Source: Eggerthellaceae bacterium (GTDB lineage Bacteria; Actinomycetota; Coriobacteriia; Coriobacteriales; Eggerthellaceae). Taken from it: 32,484 nucleotides of DNA. Under the pieces are notes generated by a model, which worked only from the letters and a program-made list of their open reading frames with translations, was not told the DNA's origin and ran no database searches. Where the stretch lies: the NCBI GenBank assembly GCA_017459925.1, contig JAFUCC010000063.1, positions 1 to 32,484 of the forward strand, written 5' to 3'. Shown here in pieces: positions 1 through 28,815 of this stretch (the first letter of the stretch is position 1; each line of letters starts with the position of its first letter). The translations under genes and the position numbers were made by a program.

Positions 1-16
1 CGAAGCGGAATGGCGA

Positions 17-34
17 GAGGGGCGCAAGCCCCTC
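17..34. other. GC-rich hairpin with GCAA tetraloop beside the DGR template
   Basis: A perfect 7-bp stem (GAGGGGC / GCCCCTC) closes a GCAA loop, a GNRA-type tetraloop. In the Bordetella phage DGR a hairpin of similar size with a GAAA loop sits just downstream of the variable repeat and helps target recognition. Here the variable repeat is not in view, so the role is inferred from position only. The segment could also be read as part of the template-like open frame. Confidence 0.4.
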
Positions 35-41
35 ACCGCCT

Positions 42-197
42 AGCACCAAGGGGATTCGCGGCAAGTCGGCCGCATGTTTCTTCTGGCAGGGCCTCGGCAA
101 CCTGAACAACGGCGCTAATGCCGGCTTGTTCTACGTCAACGCGAACAACGAGCTGTCCAACGCCAACTGGAACATCGGGTCGCGGCAATCTGGTTGA
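42..197 (+). repeat. DGR template repeat (TR) candidate
   Basis: In one frame this segment reads like the C-terminus of a C-type-lectin-fold phage receptor-binding protein, with segments such as FFWQGLGNLNNGANAG and NANNELSNANWNIGSR, then a TGA at 195-197. About ten of its codons are AAC or AAT, all with adenines intact. This is the hallmark of a DGR template, because adenines are the mutagenised positions and a variable repeat would show substitutions there. It lies about 145 nt upstream of a reverse transcriptase on the same strand. The exact 5' limit cannot be set without the variable repeat, which should be to the left of the window. Confidence 0.75.
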
Positions 198-340
198 AGA
201 CTCTCTATCCAACCGCGTCTACCCGGCACGACCAGAAGTGACCGGGCATGCCCGCTCAACGTAGCAAAATTCGCCCGAAGACCACTGGGCTGGTAGCGCA
301 AGCGAACGCTCAGAGGGCAACCAGAGAAAAGAGCTAGGTC

Positions 341-1438
341 TTGAAGACATATTGCAAGGGATTGAAGATTGATCGCGCTTTCATCGAGAAGGCTTACGCC
401 GAGTGGACGAAAGCACCCGCCGGAAAGAAGAACTCGTGGCGTGTCGACGAAGAGTATGGCGGCAAGGATGTCCTCATCGACGAGATTACCGAACAGGTTG
501 AGTCCCGCACGCTCTCGTTTAAGCCCTTCAAGCGTTACAAACGAATGGAGAAAGGGTCGCGCAAGGAGCGCGATATCAGCATCGCTGAGGTCAAGTACCA
601 GGTCGCCACATACGCGGTGAAGCTCGCTATCGGCGGCATGCTCGATGCGAAGCTCGGCTACTACCAGACCGCAGGCGTCAAGGACAAGGGCCAGAAGCTC
701 GTCAAGAAGGCCCTCGCGAAATGGTCCGCAGAGGAGGAATGCACACATCAAGTCAAGCTGGACGTGCGCAAATGTTACAAGCACATCACATGCGAACTGG
801 TCATGCGAATATTGCTCAAGTTCGTAGCAAGCGAGGACGTGTTATACGTGGCCGAATGCCTGCTCTCGTGTTACGAGTTCGGCGTGCTCGAGATCGGAAC
901 GTACTTCTCGCTGCTCATGGCGAATCTCGTACTCTCCTATGCCTACCACTTCATCGAGGGGCTGCACAAGTACCGGAGAGGCAAGCGCAGACGGCTCGTG
1001 CTCCATCAGGTGTGGCATCTCGATGACGTGGTTCTCGTCGGTTCTGACAAGCGCGACCTCAAGATGGCCGTGCGCGAGCTGACCAGGTACATGAAAGAGA
1101 GGCTTGGCCTCGAACTCAAGCCTTGGAAGGTGGCTAGCGTCGATGGAATCGAAATGCTCGACATGGGCGGCTACCGCGCCGTCGATGGCCGCGTGACTCT
1201 TCGCAAGCGACTGTTCCTGAGCGTCAAGAGGGCGTTCGGCAAGTTCTCAAAGCATAAGACTCTCGCCCTCGCGAGGCGTTGCTGCTCCTACTGGGGCTGG
1301 CTCAAACACTCTGACTCTGGCGAGTTCGTCAAGAACAACGGCATCGCTGGGCTGCTCAAAGCGGCCAAGAAGATGATTTCCAGGCACTCAAAGAGAAAGG
1401 AAGAAACATGCGCAGGATTCGCAGTGCAACCGAGCTGA
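341..1438 (+). CDS. DGR-type reverse transcriptase
   Basis: This 365-aa protein fits a group II-related reverse transcriptase of the DGR type. It would copy the template RNA with adenine-directed errors so the product can replace a variable repeat in a phage tail-tip gene. The palm motifs are visible: VKLDVRKCYKHI with Asp141 near residues 138-149, an IGTYFSLLMANLVLS block at 185-199 matching the DGR 'IGxxxSQ..AN' motif, and catalytic HLDDVVL at 226-232 with Asp228/Asp229. The usual aromatic YxDD is HLDD here and the SQ is SL, so it is a divergent member. The start is a TTG with only a weak upstream purine tract and is uncertain. The 3' end overlaps the next gene by 31 nt. No Avd accessory gene is visible. 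Confidence 0.85.
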   Translation: MKTYCKGLKIDRAFIEKAYAEWTKAPAGKKNSWRVDEEYGGKDVLIDEITEQVESRTLSFKPFKRYKRMEKGSRKERDISIAEVKYQVATYAVKLAIGGMLDAKLGYYQTAGVKDKGQKLVKKALAKWSAEEECTHQVKLDVRKCYKHITCELVMRILLKFVASEDVLYVAECLLSCYEFGVLEIGTYFSLLMANLVLSYAYHFIEGLHKYRRGKRRRLVLHQVWHLDDVVLVGSDKRDLKMAVRELTRYMKERLGLELKPWKVASVDGIEMLDMGGYRAVDGRVTLRKRLFLSVKRAFGKFSKHKTLALARRCCSYWGWLKHSDSGEFVKNNGIAGLLKAAKKMISRHSKRKEETCAGFAVQPS

Positions 1439-1722
1439 GCGCGGTCCACGTCGAGGACTTGGGCAACGGCTGCTCCGAGGTTTGGTTGTACGACAACATC
1501 GCCGAGACGCTTGTTGAAGACGAATACGGCTCCCAGGTGTTCTGGGATGCCGACAGCGTGAACGCCGTCGTCGCCGGCGTGCCGTCTGAAGACGAGATCG
1601 AGGCTGCTTTCGAGGATTGGTGGAACCGCCTCGAGGAGGCGTCGCTCACCGACGCCGAGCGTTTCGAGAAGCTTGAGGCGCAGGTGCTCTTCACCGCGCT
1701 GATGACGGATACGGAGGTGTAG
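1408..1722 (+). CDS. Small acidic phage protein of unknown function
   Basis: A 104-aa, acidic, soluble protein that I do not recognise. It starts inside the reverse transcriptase 3' end at an ATG preceded by AAAGGA, which suggests coupled translation, and ends 2 nt before the next gene. It has no membrane segment or Cys cluster. Trp-rich and acidic helical segments (for example EAAFEDWWNRLEEA) fill the second half. Its place between tail-tip and XkdX-like genes suggests a tail-associated or tail-assembly role, as seen for small ORFs at that point in siphophage maps. That is inference from position. Confidence 0.6.
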   Translation: MRRIRSATELSAVHVEDLGNGCSEVWLYDNIAETLVEDEYGSQVFWDADSVNAVVAGVPSEDEIEAAFEDWWNRLEEASLTDAERFEKLEAQVLFTALMTDTEV

Positions 1723-1724
1723 CC

Positions 1725-2024
1725 ATGGCTGTCAACGTTTACGAGAAGGCCGCGCAGTATTACGCGAAGGGCCTCTGGAAGCTAGCACAGCTCGAGGCGC
1801 TTGTCGCCAAGGGCTTGCTCACCGAAGAGCAGGTTCGCCAAATCGTCGGCATCGACGGCGAGTTCGACGGCATGACCGCGTCCGAGGTGCTTGCCGCTCT
1901 TGGCTCGAACCCGACCAAGGCACGCCTGCAAGACGCCTGTGACGCGCTCGGCATCGAGTACGCCGCATCTGCCACCAAGGCCCAACTGCTGGCCCTTATT
2001 GAGGCAGAGGTGGGTGCGGAGTAA
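1725..2024 (+). CDS. XkdX-like phage protein with C-terminal HeH/SAP-like helix pair
   Basis: This 99-aa protein begins with VYEKAAQYYAKGLWKLAQLEALVAKGLL-type sequence (residues 4-31). It resembles the short XkdX family found between tail-fibre and lysis genes in PBSX-like and many other siphophages ('YY.kGlw...l...v.kG.it.eey..I.G'). Residues about 62-97, containing SNPTKARLQDACDALGIEY and TKAQLLALIEAE, look like a helix-extended-loop-helix (HeH/LEM/SAP-like) module, which binds nucleic acid in other proteins. It starts 2 nt after the preceding stop, and its stop overlaps the next ATG (TAATG). XkdX function is not established. Confidence 0.65.
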   Translation: MAVNVYEKAAQYYAKGLWKLAQLEALVAKGLLTEEQVRQIVGIDGEFDGMTASEVLAALGSNPTKARLQDACDALGIEYAASATKAQLLALIEAEVGAE

Positions 2025-2281
2025 TGGACCTTACGCCCTATATCGGCTACCTCGTTACCGCTGCTCTTACGTTCATCGGCATGTATGTCGCCACGAAGAA
2101 CGCGAACAATGACAAGTTCACGGAGCTAATGGCTCAAAACGCGGCTCAAACAGCCGAGATACGGGCGCTTAAGGAGCAGGTCGAGAAGCACAACAACGTC
2201 ATTGAGCGCGTGTACAAGATCGAGACGGAAATGGTCACGGTCTGGAAGCGCATTGATGAGTTGAAAGAAGCTGTCAAGTGA
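2024..2281 (+). CDS. Membrane-anchored coiled-coil protein, XhlA/holin-accessory type
   Basis: The 85-aa product has one N-terminal membrane segment (about residues 5-24, YIGYLVTAALTFIGMYVA). A charged, heptad-like coiled coil to the C-terminus follows (residues 30-84). This arrangement resembles small lysis-cassette proteins such as XhlA, though XhlA usually has its membrane segment at the C-terminus. It overlaps the preceding stop codon (TAATG) and is followed directly by the holin, so the three genes are probably translated as a coupled block. A holin accessory or anti-holin role is inferred. Confidence 0.55.
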   Translation: MDLTPYIGYLVTAALTFIGMYVATKNANNDKFTELMAQNAAQTAEIRALKEQVEKHNNVIERVYKIETEMVTVWKRIDELKEAVK

Positions 2282-2292
2282 AAGGAAACATT

Positions 2293-2559
2293 ATGAACAT
2301 CAACTGGAAAGTGCGGTTTATGAACAAGTGGTTCTGGGTGACCATTATCCCCGCAATCATCCTGCTCGTTCAGCAGGTTGCTGCCATATTCGGCGTTGTG
2401 CTCGATTTTGGCGCCCTGCAAGACCAGCTGATCGCCGTGGTCGGCACGGTGTTCGGCATCCTCGCCCTCTTGGGTATCGCCGTCGATATGACCACCGAGG
2501 GAATTAGCGATTCGGAACGTGCGCTCGGATATGAGGAGCCTTACAAGAAGGAGGCGTAA
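2293..2559 (+). CDS. Phage holin (phi-LC3/PF04531-like)
   Basis: An 88-aa small membrane protein opening with MNINWKVRFMNKWFWV, typical of the phi-LC3/phage_holin_1 class ('INWKVRlkNk.fW...i'). Two hydrophobic segments follow (about residues 15-35 and 45-65), then a charged tail ending near GYEEPYKKEA. It would form the membrane lesion that releases or activates the endolysin encoded 2 nt downstream. ATG 2293 is chosen over the upstream GTG 2278 because AAAGGA lies 6 nt before it. Confidence 0.8.
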   Translation: MNINWKVRFMNKWFWVTIIPAIILLVQQVAAIFGVVLDFGALQDQLIAVVGTVFGILALLGIAVDMTTEGISDSERALGYEEPYKKEA

Positions 2560-2561
2560 CT

Positions 2562-3491
2562 ATGGGACGCTTCTCCTGGGGTTACACCGGCTCCATCATG
2601 GACCAGCTCGCGGGGTACTACAAGTTTGTACCCTTTGACGGGCAGCTTGACCTCGACAAGGGCGAAATCCTGCTGAGGACGACGTGGGAAAACCCGCCTG
2701 CGCACACCTGCATCTGCTCGACTCCCGGCCGTGTGCTCGAGGCGTCTGACGACTTCGACGGCAGGCCCGGTGATTCGTCTGGATGGGAAGTCTGCGAGCG
2801 CGATATCCATCACAACTCGTGGGAGTGGGTCGGCATCCCCGTAGGGTTGTCGGAAGAGGCAATCGACGCGGGTATCGCTTGGGGCCGCAACTACGTGAAC
2901 GATGATAGTCACGGCTACTCGCAGGGTAACGACCGCATGGGCGAGCAATGCGACTGTTCGTCTCTGGTGCTGATGATCGTCGGCGTCATGATTGACGCTC
3001 AGGAAGGTTTGCCTGTCGAGCAGGCGCCGTCAGTCGATTACGACGGAGGTTGGCAAGCCGAGCGTGCAGAATGGCAGGGCGACGTCATCGGCCGCGAGGA
3101 CACCACCGGTTGTCACGATGATTACGCTGGCGTCTTGGGTAAGCCCATCCTGTACATCGCCATCGACGGCGTTGGCGAGTATCAGGTGTCTGACATCCAC
3201 CATGACGCGTTCTGGCCAATGATCGACCACTACGACCTGTCGGACGAGGAGCACGGCTACGCGGGTGATAACCAGCCTATCGACAAGCTGCGTATCAAAG
3301 ACCCGACGGTATACTACCAGCTCCACGAACTCGGCAAGCCGCTTGACGAGTGGCACGAGGTCATGCACGGGCTCGTCGACTCGTCGAAGTACGGTGACGA
3401 CTTCGCCGGCGAGTCGAACGTGAAGCATGACCTTGTGCGCATCTGGCGCGACGAGGGCCAGCCTCAGCCCCGTTACAACGTGTACTCATGA
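2562..3491 (+). CDS. Phage endolysin, NlpC/P60-type (Amidase_5-like) with C-terminal repeat module
   Basis: This 309-aa lysin directly follows the holin. Residues 31-90 match the C-terminal half of phage NlpC/P60 (Amidase_5-type) peptidases: GEILL, HTCICSTPGRVLEA with His48, then PGDSSGWEVCER and a Trp. Residues 98-140 match the N-terminal half: AIDAGIAWGRN, DDSHGYSQGN and DCSSLVL with the likely nucleophile Cys132. The His half therefore precedes the Cys half, the reverse of the usual order, so the fold may be circularly permuted. Residues about 187-257 hold two degenerate repeats (YAGVLGKPI... and YAGDNQPID...) like wall-binding modules of other lysins. It would cut peptide cross-links in host peptidoglycan at lysis. 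Confidence 0.8.
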   Translation: MGRFSWGYTGSIMDQLAGYYKFVPFDGQLDLDKGEILLRTTWENPPAHTCICSTPGRVLEASDDFDGRPGDSSGWEVCERDIHHNSWEWVGIPVGLSEEAIDAGIAWGRNYVNDDSHGYSQGNDRMGEQCDCSSLVLMIVGVMIDAQEGLPVEQAPSVDYDGGWQAERAEWQGDVIGREDTTGCHDDYAGVLGKPILYIAIDGVGEYQVSDIHHDAFWPMIDHYDLSDEEHGYAGDNQPIDKLRIKDPTVYYQLHELGKPLDEWHEVMHGLVDSSKYGDDFAGESNVKHDLVRIWRDEGQPQPRYNVYS

Positions 3492-3643: not shown

Positions 3644-4051
3644 TACAATGCAGGTGACGCCCCGCAGGGCGCTGGCTCTTAGCATTTCGGCCCGAAACTG
3701 AAAGCCCCCTTGGGTACTGCGGCTCTGCCCATGCTCTCAGCATACAGGGCGTAGAAAGCGGCCACACGCTCAGTGGTGCAGCAGGGCGCCTTGGTTTTGG
3801 CGGGTTTGTGGTGCCCCGTGTCATGCATCGCATCGCCCATGCGCCCAGTGCGCAGTGGGTTGCGAGGCCGTCACCAGAAGGCGTCCTCAGTCGCGCCCCG
3901 CGGACAAACCGCGGGGCGCATGCTTTGCAGGACACAATAAGTCACAATCTGAGATAATTCCTTGCGTTCCACGAATCTCAGCGAGCTTGAGACGAGCTTG
4001 AACAATTCAGCAAGAAGGGCGCAAAAGCGTGACCTGGGAGGTCGAATCGCT
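3644..4051. other. Non-coding phage end with several hairpins
   Basis: About 400 nt without a convincing gene. It contains a short GCCC/GGGC hairpin near 3655, a TTCGGCCCGAA palindrome near 3671, a perfect 11-bp hairpin at 3893-3919, and a small hairpin (GACCT/AGGTC) at 4031-4043 next to the attachment site. It could encode a structured RNA or simply be the phage attP arm. An ORF of 107 codons on the minus strand has no family features and is not accepted. Confidence 0.4.
3893..3919. terminator. Strong 11-bp GC hairpin
   Basis: GCGCCCCGCGG and its perfect complement flank an ACAAA loop. Only a weak T tract follows (ATGCTTTG), so it is either a terminator of the phage late operon or a structural element of a small RNA. 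Confidence 0.5.
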
Positions 4052-4096
4052 CTCGTAATGAGCAGGTCAGCGGTTCGAGTCCGCTCGTTGGCTCCA
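4052..4096 (+). other. Prophage attR: 3' fragment of tRNA-Thr(CGU)
   Basis: The segment matches a tRNA from the anticodon loop onward: loop CTCGTAA with anticodon CGT at 4054-4056, a perfect 5-bp T stem around TTCGAGT (4069-4085), and acceptor strand CGTTGGC plus T and CCA to 4096. The 5' half is missing: the bases before the loop cannot pair with TGAGC, and no GCCAACG-type 5' acceptor lies upstream. This is the pattern left when a phage integrates into a tRNA 3' end. The intact gene should be at attL, left of the window. Confidence 0.85.
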
Positions 4097-4104
4097 CGAA
4101 ACCG

Positions 4105-4136
4105 CAGGCCAGGACCAAGTCCTGGCCTGTTTCTTT
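4105..4136 (+). terminator. Rho-independent terminator after tRNA-Thr fragment
   Basis: CAGGCCAGGA and TCCTGGCCTG form a perfect 10-bp stem around CCAAG, followed by TTTCTTTT. It probably terminated the original tRNA-Thr gene. Confidence 0.9.
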
Positions 4137-4292: not shown

Positions 4293-6026
4293 ATGGGCGA
4301 TCGATACGACGACCGCTACGATTCTTACGACGACGGGTACGACAGCCGATCGAACGGTCGGTACAGCAGCTCTCGAAGCGACCGTTCAGGGTATCGTTCC
4401 TCGAATTCGCGTTCGGGCTCAAGCTCGAGCCAAGGCTCCTACGGCGCCAATTCGAACCGCCGCTTATCGCAGAGCGCCGATGCGCGCTATGTCGGTTCGC
4501 AGAACGTGTTCAGCGATTTCTATCCCGAAGACGACAATATCGACTTCTACCGTCGCTCGTCGTATGGCAGCGGCGCATCTGGCGCCTCCCGCAGCGCTTC
4601 CCGCAATTCTTCTCGCAGCTCGTCGCGGCGGTCTTCGTATGCCGACGAGTATTCCGAGCCGTATTCTGCCAACGCCACGCGCAACCGCTCGTCGCGTCGC
4701 GTCAGCCATACGAGCACGACGCCGCGCACGACAGCCGAGCGCGGCTCCGAGCGGCGACGTTACTCCGATTCCCTGGAAAGTCAGGGCACGAGAAGGTATT
4801 CCGCCAACACCGCAAGCTCTTCCCGACGGTCGGAGCCAGTGCCGCGGAACGCCGCTATCGATGACGACGAGCAGTACTACGACGAGGTGGAGTACGCCCC
4901 TAAGAAGTCCAACCGGAAGCGCAACATCATCATAGCCGTCGTTGTGGTCATCGCTGTCATCCTCATCGGGGCTGGTGCGGCGTTCGCTTACGTCAATTCC
5001 ATTTCGAGCAACTTGCACGAGGGCGTCGACGAAGACCTGACGAACGCGCTCGTGCCGACCAACATGGCAGACGAGCCGTTCTACGTGCTGCTATTGGGCA
5101 CCGACACGAGCGAATGGCGCGTCGAGAACGAGAGCGATTACGACACGACGCGCAGCGACTCGATGATGCTCGCCCGCATCGATCCGGTCAAAAAGAAGGT
5201 GGCGCTCATCTCGATCGACCGCGACACGATGGTCGAAATCGAAGGATACGGAACCCAGAAGATCAACGCCGCGTACGAAATCGGCGGCGCAGCGGGCGCG
5301 GTCAAGGCCGTTTCGAACATGACGGGGCTCGATATCTCGCATTACGCCTCCGTCGATTTCGATGGCTTCGCCGCAATCGTGGATGCGCTCGGGGGCGTCG
5401 AAGTCGATGTTCCCATGGCTGTCGACGATCCCGAGGCAGGTGGCACCGTCGAGGCGGGCCTGCAGACGCTCAACGGCGAGCAGGCGCTCATCTTGTGCCG
5501 CTCGCGCCATGCCTATGACGACATGAACACGGTGGGCGGGTACGTCCGCGATGGTTATCAGCGCATGATCCTCGGTGCCATTGCGAAGAAGCTGCTTTCT
5601 TCCGATATCCTGACCATCGCCAACACCGTGACGGACATGTCCCGCTACGTTACGACCGATATGAACATTTCCGACATCATCGGCCTTGCGCAAATCATGC
5701 AGGGGCTCGATCCCGATACCGACATCTACACCGCCCGCGAACCAACGTATAGCCTGTACATCGACTCGACATGGTACGAGGTGCTCGACGAAGACGAGTG
5801 GGCCAAGATGATCGACCGCATGGATAGGGGCCTGTCTCCCTCGGATACGGTCGAAGTCGACCCGGCGACAGGCGTGCTGTTGTCGACGACGGGGTCGAAG
5901 TCCGAGGCAAGCGCCGCGGCGCAAACGGTTTCAGTGGAAGAAGGCGCGCGAGCGGTTAACACGCGCGATCCCGAGGCCGAAGAGTACTGGGAAGACGATT
6001 CCGACGACTCGGAATACGAAGAATAG
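4293..6026 (+). CDS. LytR-CpsA-Psr (LCP) family cell-wall glycopolymer ligase
   Basis: LCP proteins transfer undecaprenyl-linked glycopolymers to peptidoglycan on the outer face of the membrane. The 577-aa protein has a long disordered N-terminal tail (1-205) rich in Ser, Arg, Tyr and Asp, one membrane helix (about 211-233), and an extracytoplasmic LCP domain. That domain starts near FYVLLLGTD (about 262) and includes the Arg/Asp-rich segments TTRSDSMMLARID, ISIDRDTMVEI and CRSRHAYDD. A Ser/Asp/Glu-rich tail ends the protein. The start has a strong GGGAGG at 7-12 nt upstream. It is 12 nt upstream of rlmH and may share its transcript. The low-complexity tail could be a phosphorylation or septum-targeting region, which is inference. 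Confidence 0.9.
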   Translation: MGDRYDDRYDSYDDGYDSRSNGRYSSSRSDRSGYRSSNSRSGSSSSQGSYGANSNRRLSQSADARYVGSQNVFSDFYPEDDNIDFYRRSSYGSGASGASRSASRNSSRSSSRRSSYADEYSEPYSANATRNRSSRRVSHTSTTPRTTAERGSERRRYSDSLESQGTRRYSANTASSSRRSEPVPRNAAIDDDEQYYDEVEYAPKKSNRKRNIIIAVVVVIAVILIGAGAAFAYVNSISSNLHEGVDEDLTNALVPTNMADEPFYVLLLGTDTSEWRVENESDYDTTRSDSMMLARIDPVKKKVALISIDRDTMVEIEGYGTQKINAAYEIGGAAGAVKAVSNMTGLDISHYASVDFDGFAAIVDALGGVEVDVPMAVDDPEAGGTVEAGLQTLNGEQALILCRSRHAYDDMNTVGGYVRDGYQRMILGAIAKKLLSSDILTIANTVTDMSRYVTTDMNISDIIGLAQIMQGLDPDTDIYTAREPTYSLYIDSTWYEVLDEDEWAKMIDRMDRGLSPSDTVEVDPATGVLLSTTGSKSEASAAAQTVSVEEGARAVNTRDPEAEEYWEDDSDDSEYEE

Positions 6027-6038
6027 CCCGCTTGCCGC

Positions 6039-6509
6039 ATGAAGTTCACCGTAATAGCCGTCGGCAAGCTGAAAGAGCGGTTTTGGGCGGATGCGTGCGC
6101 CGAGTACTTGAAGCGCCTGCAGCCGTATGGGAAGACCTCTGTTGTGGAAGTTCCCGACGTCGATCCGGCGAAAGCCGGCGGTGACGCTGCGGCGGTCGAA
6201 CGTGAAGGCGCTGCCGTCTTGAAGGCCGTTCCCGAACGGGCGCATGTCATCGTGCTTGCCATCGGGGGAACCCAGCGTTCGAGCGAAGAGCTTGCTGCGC
6301 GCATCGACAAGTTGGGCGTATCGGGCGTAGGCGAGGTTGCGTTCGTCATCGGCGGCTCGTGCGGCGTGTCGGCCGACGTGCTGAAACGCGCGGACGAAAC
6401 GTTGTCGTTCGGGCCGATCACCTTGCCGCACAACCTCGCGCGCGTCGTGCTGCTCGAGCAGCTGTACCGCGCGTGCAAGATTTCCCGAGGCGAGCCCTAC
6501 CATAAGTAA
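6039..6509 (+). CDS. rlmH: 23S rRNA pseudouridine-1915 N3-methyltransferase RlmH
   Basis: RlmH is a small SPOUT methyltransferase that uses SAM to methylate pseudouridine 1915 in helix 69 of 23S rRNA. The 156-aa length is normal. The N-terminus MKFTVIAVGKLKERFW, the glycine-rich FVIGGSCGVS loop (about 104-113) and the C-terminal trefoil-knot sequence LPHNLARVVLLEQLYRA...GEPYHK are diagnostic. It follows the LCP gene closely; its stop codon touches the inverted-repeat pair at 6510-6579. Confidence 0.97.
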   Translation: MKFTVIAVGKLKERFWADACAEYLKRLQPYGKTSVVEVPDVDPAKAGGDAAAVEREGAAVLKAVPERAHVIVLAIGGTQRSSEELAARIDKLGVSGVGEVAFVIGGSCGVSADVLKRADETLSFGPITLPHNLARVVLLEQLYRACKISRGEPYHK

Positions 6510-6579
6510 ATTGAACGTTACCCCAGGGGTGATGTTCAAATTGATAGATTTGAACATCACCCCTGGGGTAACGTTCAAT
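6510..6579. repeat. Palindrome family 1, mirrored pair (32-bp perfect stem)
   Basis: Two 27-nt imperfect palindromes (6512-6538 and 6551-6577), each with a TGAAC arm and an ACCCC/GGGGT core, face each other. Together, 6510-6541 and 6548-6579 are perfect reverse complements around a 6-nt loop, TGATAG. The structure starts right after the rlmH stop and ends 16 nt before the xth start, so it may terminate or attenuate transcription. A second locus of the same family is at 9812-9913. Confidence 0.95.
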
Positions 6580-7729: not shown

Positions 7730-7735
7730 CTATCA

Positions 7736-7834
7736 AATGAGTATCAGGACGTTCCTGCTACTCATTTCCGATGGCGAAACTGAAGGCTGAAGCGCCCCGA
7801 GAAAATGAGTAGCAGGAACGTCCTGATACTCATT
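7736..7834. repeat. Palindrome family 2, mirrored pair with 35-nt spacer
   Basis: Two 29-nt palindromes (7737-7765 and 7805-7833) with ATGAGT/ACTCAT outer arms and a CAGGA/TCCTG core lie in opposite orientation. The arms 7736-7767 and 7803-7834 are perfect 32-nt reverse complements. They lie right after the ACT gene, between it and the convergent mscL. Confidence 0.95.
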
Positions 7835-7863
7835 GGAGCCGAGAGGCAGAACGCTTTATGAAA

Positions 7864-7899
7864 ATGAGTCGCAGGAACGTCCTGCGACTCATTCTTTTT
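7864..7899 (+). terminator. Family 2 palindrome followed by T tract
   Basis: A third family 2 unit (7864-7892) has a perfect 13-bp stem (ATGAGTCGCAGGA / TCCTGCGACTCAT) around ACG. It is followed by TCTTTTTT, so this copy looks like a factor-independent terminator reading rightwards, between convergent genes. Confidence 0.85.
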
Positions 7900-9799: not shown

Positions 9800-9811
9800 G
9801 GCCGACGGATA

Positions 9812-9913
9812 GTTGAACATCACCCCAGGGGTAATGTTCAAATTGAAGGAACGCTTCTGCGCAAAGGCAGAGTTTCAGCAAATTTGAACATTACCCCTGG
9901 GGTGATGTTCAAC
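9812..9913. repeat. Palindrome family 1, mirrored pair with 36-nt spacer
   Basis: 9812-9844 and 9881-9913 are perfect 33-nt reverse complements. Each contains a 27-nt imperfect palindrome with TGAACAT arms and an ACCCC/GGGGT core, differing from the 6510 locus at one arm position that is changed in both mirror copies. The pair fills the gap between convergent CNNM and amidohydrolase genes and may act as a bidirectional terminator. Confidence 0.95.
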
Positions 9914-9916
9914 CAT

Positions 9917-14057: not shown

Positions 14058-14088
14058 GTAGGTTTCACTCGCCAGTAAACGCGTCCCA

Positions 14089-14160
14089 ATGATGAGCATC
14101 AGGACGTTCCTGCTACTCATTTTCAGAAATGAGTAGCAGGAACGTCCTGATGCTCATCAT
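14089..14160. repeat. Palindrome family 2, mirrored pair (34-bp perfect stem)
   Basis: 14089-14122 and 14127-14160 are perfect 34-nt reverse complements around a 4-nt loop, TCAG. Each arm contains a 29-nt family 2 palindrome (14092-14120 and 14129-14157). One T-to-C change relative to the 7736 locus is present in both arms at mirrored positions. It lies 32 nt after the phosphatase stop. Confidence 0.95.
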
Positions 14161-14554: not shown

Positions 14555-14631
14555 TGCGGGGTGGAGCAGTCTGGTAGCTCGCCGGGCTCATAACCCGGAG
14601 GTCGTAGGTTCAAATCCTGCCCCCGCGACCA
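14555..14631 (+). tRNA. Initiator tRNA-fMet(CAU)
   Basis: A complete 77-nt cloverleaf with encoded CCA. The anticodon loop CTCATAA has anticodon CAT and sits on a stem with the three consecutive G:C pairs (GGG/CCC) of initiator tRNAs. The T stem GTAGG/CCTGC encloses TTCAAAT. Position 1 is T facing G72 rather than a standard Watson-Crick pair, keeping the weak 1:72 end expected of initiators. Its 3' 45 nt serve as the integration site of the element to the right and still make a functional tRNA. Confidence 0.95.
14587..14631 (+). repeat. attL: 45-bp tRNA-fMet 3' end
   Basis: This segment is identical over 45 nt to 26788-26832 and matches 41 of 45 nt at 28771-28815. It runs from the anticodon loop to the CCA, a standard tyrosine-recombinase target in tRNA genes. 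Confidence 0.95.
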
Positions 14632-26682: not shown

Positions 26683-26787
26683 GCGTTGTCAATCGATGTT
26701 AATCTGCGCAAAACAATGCTATTTACCTGCGAAAATGCAAAACGCCGATTATAATGGATGAACATCGATTATCAGGAAAACCACGGT

Positions 26788-26832
26788 CTCATAACCCGGA
26801 GGTCGTAGGTTCAAATCCTGCCCCCGCGACCA
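26788..26832 (+). repeat. attR: second 45-bp copy of the tRNA-fMet 3' end
   Basis: Identical to 14587-14631, but the preceding bases (ACCACGGT) do not form a tRNA 5' half, so this is a duplicated 3' fragment marking the element's right boundary. It is also the left boundary of the 2-kb segment that follows. Confidence 0.95.
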
Positions 26833-28657: not shown

Positions 28658-28770
28658 GGGCCTTAATGCTTCTCGTTGTATTGAATAAAATTACTCAGAA
28701 TTCCGGAGACTCTTGGGATTTGGAGTTTGCAGACGAGAGAAACGAGACGTCCCGATACTGGAAACGTGCG

Positions 28771-28815
28771 CTCATACCCCGGAGGTCGTTGGTTCAAATC
28801 CTGCCTCCGTGACCA
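28771..28815 (+). repeat. Third, diverged tRNA-fMet 3' end copy
   Basis: Matches the 45-bp att core at 41 of 45 positions. The changes break T-stem and acceptor pairing, so it is not part of a working tRNA. It is followed at once by a terminator that resembles the one after the intact tRNA. It marks another past integration event at this locus. Confidence 0.85.

Follow-up and report, generated by a model that had tools for sequence, protein, structure and literature searches.

The closest described systems are the diversity-generating retroelement (DGR) of phage BPP-1 and the prophage DGRs of Eggerthella lenta. Avd is essential in BPP-1 (PMC12875486), and DGRs without an accessory gene were noted earlier (PMC4159848). 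An Avd-type DGR in an E. lenta prophage varied in lysogens in chemostat culture, and the published E. lenta DGRs have either a predicted avd (clades 3, 4, 7 and 10) or a template repeat (TR) inside the gene for the reverse transcriptase (RT) (clade 2) (PMC8778435). Among 155 DGRs, the RT motif GxxxSQ was present in 90%, SL was absent from the variants listed there, and the Asp pair was preceded by Y or F (PMC3521204).

The window, the whole stretch of 32,484 nucleotides analyzed here, makes up all of contig C127, one of 224 in an assembly from an Eggerthellaceae bacterium. Positions 1-1438 are, with very high confidence, the right half of a DGR of a tailed temperate Eggerthellaceae phage. Because the window is a whole contig, which starts 83 nt before the TR, the left part of the DGR cannot be inside it. 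The features of the right half are:

1-16, plus strand: probable 3' arm of a first hairpin, CGAAGCGGAATGGCGA, judged from relatives with GGGGTGAAT, the hairpin and GAGGGG...
17-34, plus strand: GC-rich hairpin, GAGGGGC-GCAA-GCCCCTC, between target gene and TR; perfect 7-bp stem, 4-nt loop
84-192, plus strand: TR, 109 nt with 26 adenines and 10 AAY codons in the target-gene frame; gapless against the variable repeat (VR)
212-328, plus strand: structured spacer RNA, distantly like Rfam RT-19 (RF03073)
341-1438, plus strand: DGR reverse transcriptase, 365 aa; RVT_1 E 1.7e-11, PHROG 1423 E 7e-37; motif IV GTYFSL, motif V HLDD
1408-1722, plus strand: small tail-module protein; overlaps the RT gene, with homologs beside the RT of every close relative

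Adenine pattern and target tail protein

Frame 3-197 ends in ...WQGLGNLNNGANAGLFYVNANNELSNANWNIGSRQS and has 10 Asn codons (nine AAC and one AAT) in 36 codons, in agreement with the run of about ten Asn codons pointed out in an earlier note on this DNA. That note had also predicted that a tail gene to the left would carry at its 3' end a near-copy of 42-190, with differences at adenines alone. No second copy was found within the window; when the rest of the assembly was searched at the DNA level with 51-197, a single other good match came up, C124:24-132 (minus strand), at the very end of a 66-kb contig (E 6e-27, 83% identity). The predicted copy thus exists; its expected bounds were slightly off, the homology covering 84-192. 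The two copies were aligned with no gaps and 18 mismatches in 109 nt, and 18/18 mismatches were at adenines of the window copy (26/109 bases are A), with a hypergeometric p of about 9e-15 (chance about 1e-14). Because all mismatches fall on adenines of the window copy, the window contains the TR and C124 the VR. The substitutions from TR to VR were A>G (9), A>C (5) and A>T (4). The 83 positions other than adenine show no drift, and the last homing was therefore recent. The homology extends to TCTG, changed adenines occur almost up to this end, and no separate IMH/IMH* boundary was visible. AAY codons, which hold most TR adenines, give access to 15 amino acids and never to a stop, and about 7e14 protein variants are reachable from the TR adenines.

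The VR corresponds to codons 480-515 of a 521-aa ORF on C124, i.e. it lies within the last 42 codons. This target ORF sits in the tail module of C124, with BppU-like, fibronectin and tape-measure genes upstream and with PHROG tail matches. A search of solved structures by sequence gave no match for the target. An ortholog of the target (L035, 48% identical to it) was modelled with a pLDDT of 91.7; a first, poor model of the ortholog (pLDDT 49) had been replaced by this one from a deeper alignment. The ortholog model shared its fold with Thermus aquaticus TaqVP (5vf4; Z of 20.1 over 289 residues) and BPP-1 Mtd (1yu0-1yu4; Z of 8.2-8.6), proteins with a sequence identity to the ortholog of just 12-16%. 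By way of this ortholog, the target is predicted to have the C-type-lectin fold of known DGR variable proteins, a fold that is usual for DGR targets and not required. The variable residues probably touch a receptor, and the varied tail protein could switch host binding.

Prophage, hairpins and spacer RNA

The RT gene is followed by phage genes and by the right end of the prophage:

1725-2024, plus strand: XkdX-like phage protein; PHROG 134, and PF09693 at E 6.6e-5, narrowly short of the cut-off
2278-2559, plus strand: holin; PF04531 E 1.4e-26
2562-3491, plus strand: probable endolysin, by position only, directly 3' of the holin; no match in Pfam or PHROG
4052-4108, plus strand: attR; the same 57 nt form the 3' end of tRNA-Thr(CGT), C124:46894-46950 (minus strand), beside a tyrosine integrase

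As the 57-nt repeat is common to the window and the tRNA-Thr gene, the prophage consists of C124:1-46950 and C127:1-4108, about 51 kb. Tyrosine integrase, CI-like repressor, portal, head and tape-measure genes were found between the att repeats. The prophage tail and lysis setting, the DGR-like RT directly downstream and the Coriobacteriia host had all been proposed from the letters alone, and each proposal was borne out: the gene at 341-1438 matches RVT_1 and PHROG 1423, XkdX-like, holin and lysin-like genes follow 3' of the RT, and the host belongs to the Eggerthellaceae, its nearest named relatives being MAG Eggerthellaceae RGIG2516, of the same genus, and Adlercreutzia sp. ZJ141, of the same family.

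Several other elements were observed in the prophage and its surroundings. A prophage module at L030:1486-4664 (C124, about 21.5-24.7 kb) has ParB-like and DAM-like/GNAT-like genes and an S-AdoMet-synthetase-like N-terminal domain, and is possibly a phage DNA-modification set. The 3' part (14583-14631) of a tRNA-Met gene at 14555-14631 of the window recurs at 26784-26832 and 28767-28815 (98% and 88%), as if two integrative elements, one of 12 kb and one of 2 kb, were inserted in tandem at this tRNA-Met. Intergenic palindromes around TTGAACATYACCCC(A/T)GGGGT, with arms of 32-36 nt and repeated in the genome, were seen at 6508-6578 and 9809-9916 of the window and at about 47085-47173 of C124. 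A second palindrome family (ATGAGTAGCAGGAACGTCCTGATACTCAT) was present at 7733-7893 and 14088-14160, both intergenic.

A GC-rich hairpin 3' of the VR is usual in phage DGRs. The hairpin at 17-34 occupies the same place in relatives, where the target stop is followed by GGGTGAA and two hairpins in direct succession, the second GC-rich, their stems differing in sequence; window 17-34 is the second of this tandem pair. A perfect 7-bp-stem hairpin occurred in 2.5% of shuffled stretches, and the DNA fold of 1-60 had a z of -3.3. C124 ends with AAGGGGTGAATC, and the 5' arm of the first hairpin would start at the last C124 bases. The assembly seems to be broken inside this first hairpin after the target gene (C124:1, C127:1), and hairpins of such kind may commonly split DGR cassettes in draft genomes. 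The known bases between VR and TR amount to 23 + 83 = 106, compared to 106-133 in relatives and 194-209 in two target relatives. By these figures, the gap between C124 and C127 is probably short. The two contigs are most likely adjacent; no read or contig spans both.

The spacer between TR and RT is a structured RNA, as judged from comparative evidence. It matched RT-19 over the full length (1-99/99) with 30.9 bits and E 3e-4; the gathering score, 78.3, was not reached. Column identity was 80% among 8 relatives, whose RTs are only about 44% identical. Nine pairs had compensatory changes, and 0/500 shuffles scored as high. A model built from the spacer relatives found matches downstream of the TR in five further independent lineages. 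Folded as RNA by itself, the window spacer did no better than shuffles (z -0.7). The BPP-1 spacer is Rfam Phage_DGR (RF03022) and the spacer of another relative is RT-18, so spacer RNAs of this sort are an already known part of DGRs.

Reverse transcriptase and the question of Avd

The RT gene starts 149 nt after the TR. A search with the single window RT sequence against genome and viral contigs gave no close relatives, and an RT alignment search of the same two sets gave 16 and 29 loci, respectively. Family-wide, 5/138 genomes matched the window RT, i.e. four besides its own. Each of these four family relatives has an adjoining TR/VR pair, with mismatches at adenines in 10/11, 12/12, 16/16 and 9/9 cases. 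The architecture was alike in 4/4 family genomes with a related RT and in most IMG/VR relatives, and GTDB relatives behaved alike. In three related isolate prophages the VRs differed by 14-19% and the TRs by 2-3%, figures which give no clean strain test of VR variation because the whole target genes differ by 10-21%. Phylogenetically, the window RT falls among 15 DGR RTs that form one clade (support 100/100) and stem from Eggerthellaceae, Clostridia and gut viral contigs; nearly all RTs of this prophage clade have adenine-only TR/VR pairs.

Motif IV of the window RT is IGTYFSL, with GxxxSL in place of GxxxSQ. GxxxSL is common to a subclade of 6 RTs (support 100/99) and is present in five IMG/VR RTs, four of which have adenine-only or nearly adenine-only VRs. 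Mismatches at adenines in the SL relatives were 6/6, 10/11, 12/12 and 13/13. The catalytic Asp pair, D228 and D229, is kept, and the Tyr or Phe expected before it is His, giving HLDD in place of YxDD. This His could impair the RT. Possible readings of HLDD are a variant that still works, damage acquired recently and an error in the sequence. We consider it rather unlikely that the DGR was active until recently and is now silent through an inactivating Tyr-to-His change in the YxDD of the RT. Such a loss would fit the fact that no other of the 40-odd RTs examined has HLDD, all of these having Tyr or Phe there and the nearest relatives YADD, and that the His codon, CAT, is one base from a Tyr codon; both catalytic Asp residues are present, however, in an intact gene, and TR and VR are free of drift outside the adenines. 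The present RT allele with HLDD may still be active.

No avd turned up in the stretches covered, namely C127 around the RT, the end of C124 and the short VR-TR spacing of relatives; the Avd profile is weak, and the gap between the two contigs is unsequenced. The spacing in relatives is too short, leaving no room for avd. The small protein at 1408-1722 was considered as a DGR accessory or Avd substitute and rejected, as homologs were found in two G051 prophages that have neither an RT nor TR/VR. It is rather improbable that Avd or another accessory, encoded elsewhere in the prophage or host, acts in trans, e.g. from the two Avd-type DGR loci of the assembly. These loci, on C139 and C13, do have Avd-like ORFs between VR and TR, and Pfam bAvd missed both, so a divergent Avd can go undetected; but the short VR-TR spacing without room for avd recurs in IMG/VR relatives and in those from other genomes of the family, and the small gene 3' of the RT also occurs without a DGR. 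Avd would be dispensable for the window DGR.

The two other DGRs were observed as follows. The second DGR of the assembly, on C139 (L017), has its VR at 3978-4100, TR at 4648-4770 and RT at 4636-5943, with 13/13 mismatches at adenines. Its Avd-like ORF lies between VR and TR, and its TR is within the RT frame, as in the E. lenta clade 2 prophages. Assembly contamination is 8%, and the C139 DGR may therefore come from another strain. The third, on C13 (L018, minus strand), has its VR at 2955-3080 and TR at 3687-3812 (reverse coordinates), with 10/10 mismatches at adenines. It also has an Avd-like ORF, but the reading frame of its RT breaks off some 260 aa in, and this DGR is probably decayed.

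There is next to no chance that the Asn-rich stretch is a duplicated tail-gene end beside an RT from another element (group II intron, retron or defence RT): a repeat may adjoin an RT by coincidence and the genome has other RTs, but ordinary divergence would not place 18/18 differences on adenines, which refutes this explanation, and the window RT groups with RTs that have DGR TR/VR pairs. Two further RTs of the genome were noted, namely a 440-aa open frame of unclear class with YADD at G000:C37:592-1128 (L016) and a group II intron-like RT with an HNH-like region at G000:C202:1468-2109 (L015).

Comparison with known systems

The window DGR shows the footprint of adenine mutagenesis and homing, the mechanism being carried over from BPP-1 (PMC3240598, PMC12875486). 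By this analogy, the phage RT would reverse-transcribe RNA of the TR (84-192), held by the structured spacer RNA (212-328), and make its errors at adenines. The altered cDNA would take the place of the VR near the end of the 521-aa tail gene on C124, and the GC-rich hairpins just 3' of this gene may guide this step. The outcome would be a tail tip of C-type-lectin fold with varying surface residues. A tail-protein diversifier is confirmed in an under-studied gut family. Avd, the Gln of SQ and the Tyr of YxDD are all considered important; the cassette seems to have none of them, yet its VR pattern is clean. It is a compact natural DGR for asking which of these parts are needed. Tentatively, it may belong to a two-part, Avd-free DGR lineage in gut prophages, in which an RT that has lost the Gln of GxxxSQ (and works with HLDD in the window member), a dedicated RT-19-like spacer RNA and tandem hairpins would suffice for adenine mutagenesis and homing, a proposal we regard as possible and less than probable.

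The nearest counterparts of the window DGR are in G097 and in IMG/VR 2854123636, 2866606316, 2868478403 and 3300025804. Their RTs are 43-44% identical to that of the window and have GxxxSL, their targets are 43-48% identical, and spacing, hairpins and spacer RNA are as in the window; they have YADD, compared to HLDD in the window. The E. lenta prophage DGRs (PMC8778435) have the bacterial family and a prophage tail target in common with the window. The BPP-1 DGR is like the window in the order of target with VR, TR, RT, lysis genes and att site, in the adenine-only substitutions, in the hairpin after the VR and in the presence of an RNA in the TR-RT spacer. Stem and loop of the BPP-1 hairpin element (PMC3240598) are equal in size to those of the window hairpin, whereas the window loop, GCAA, is off the GRNA consensus. 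The VR-TR spacing is 437 in BPP-1 and about 106-133 in the close relatives of the window, and the spacer RNA remotely resembles RT-19 in the window and is Phage_DGR in BPP-1. Unlike BPP-1, the window DGR has no avd found, GxxxSL and HLDD in the RT, and a tandem hairpin. The window DGR is ordinary in kind and well supported, and adds to a family from which DGR prophages have already been published (PMC8778435).
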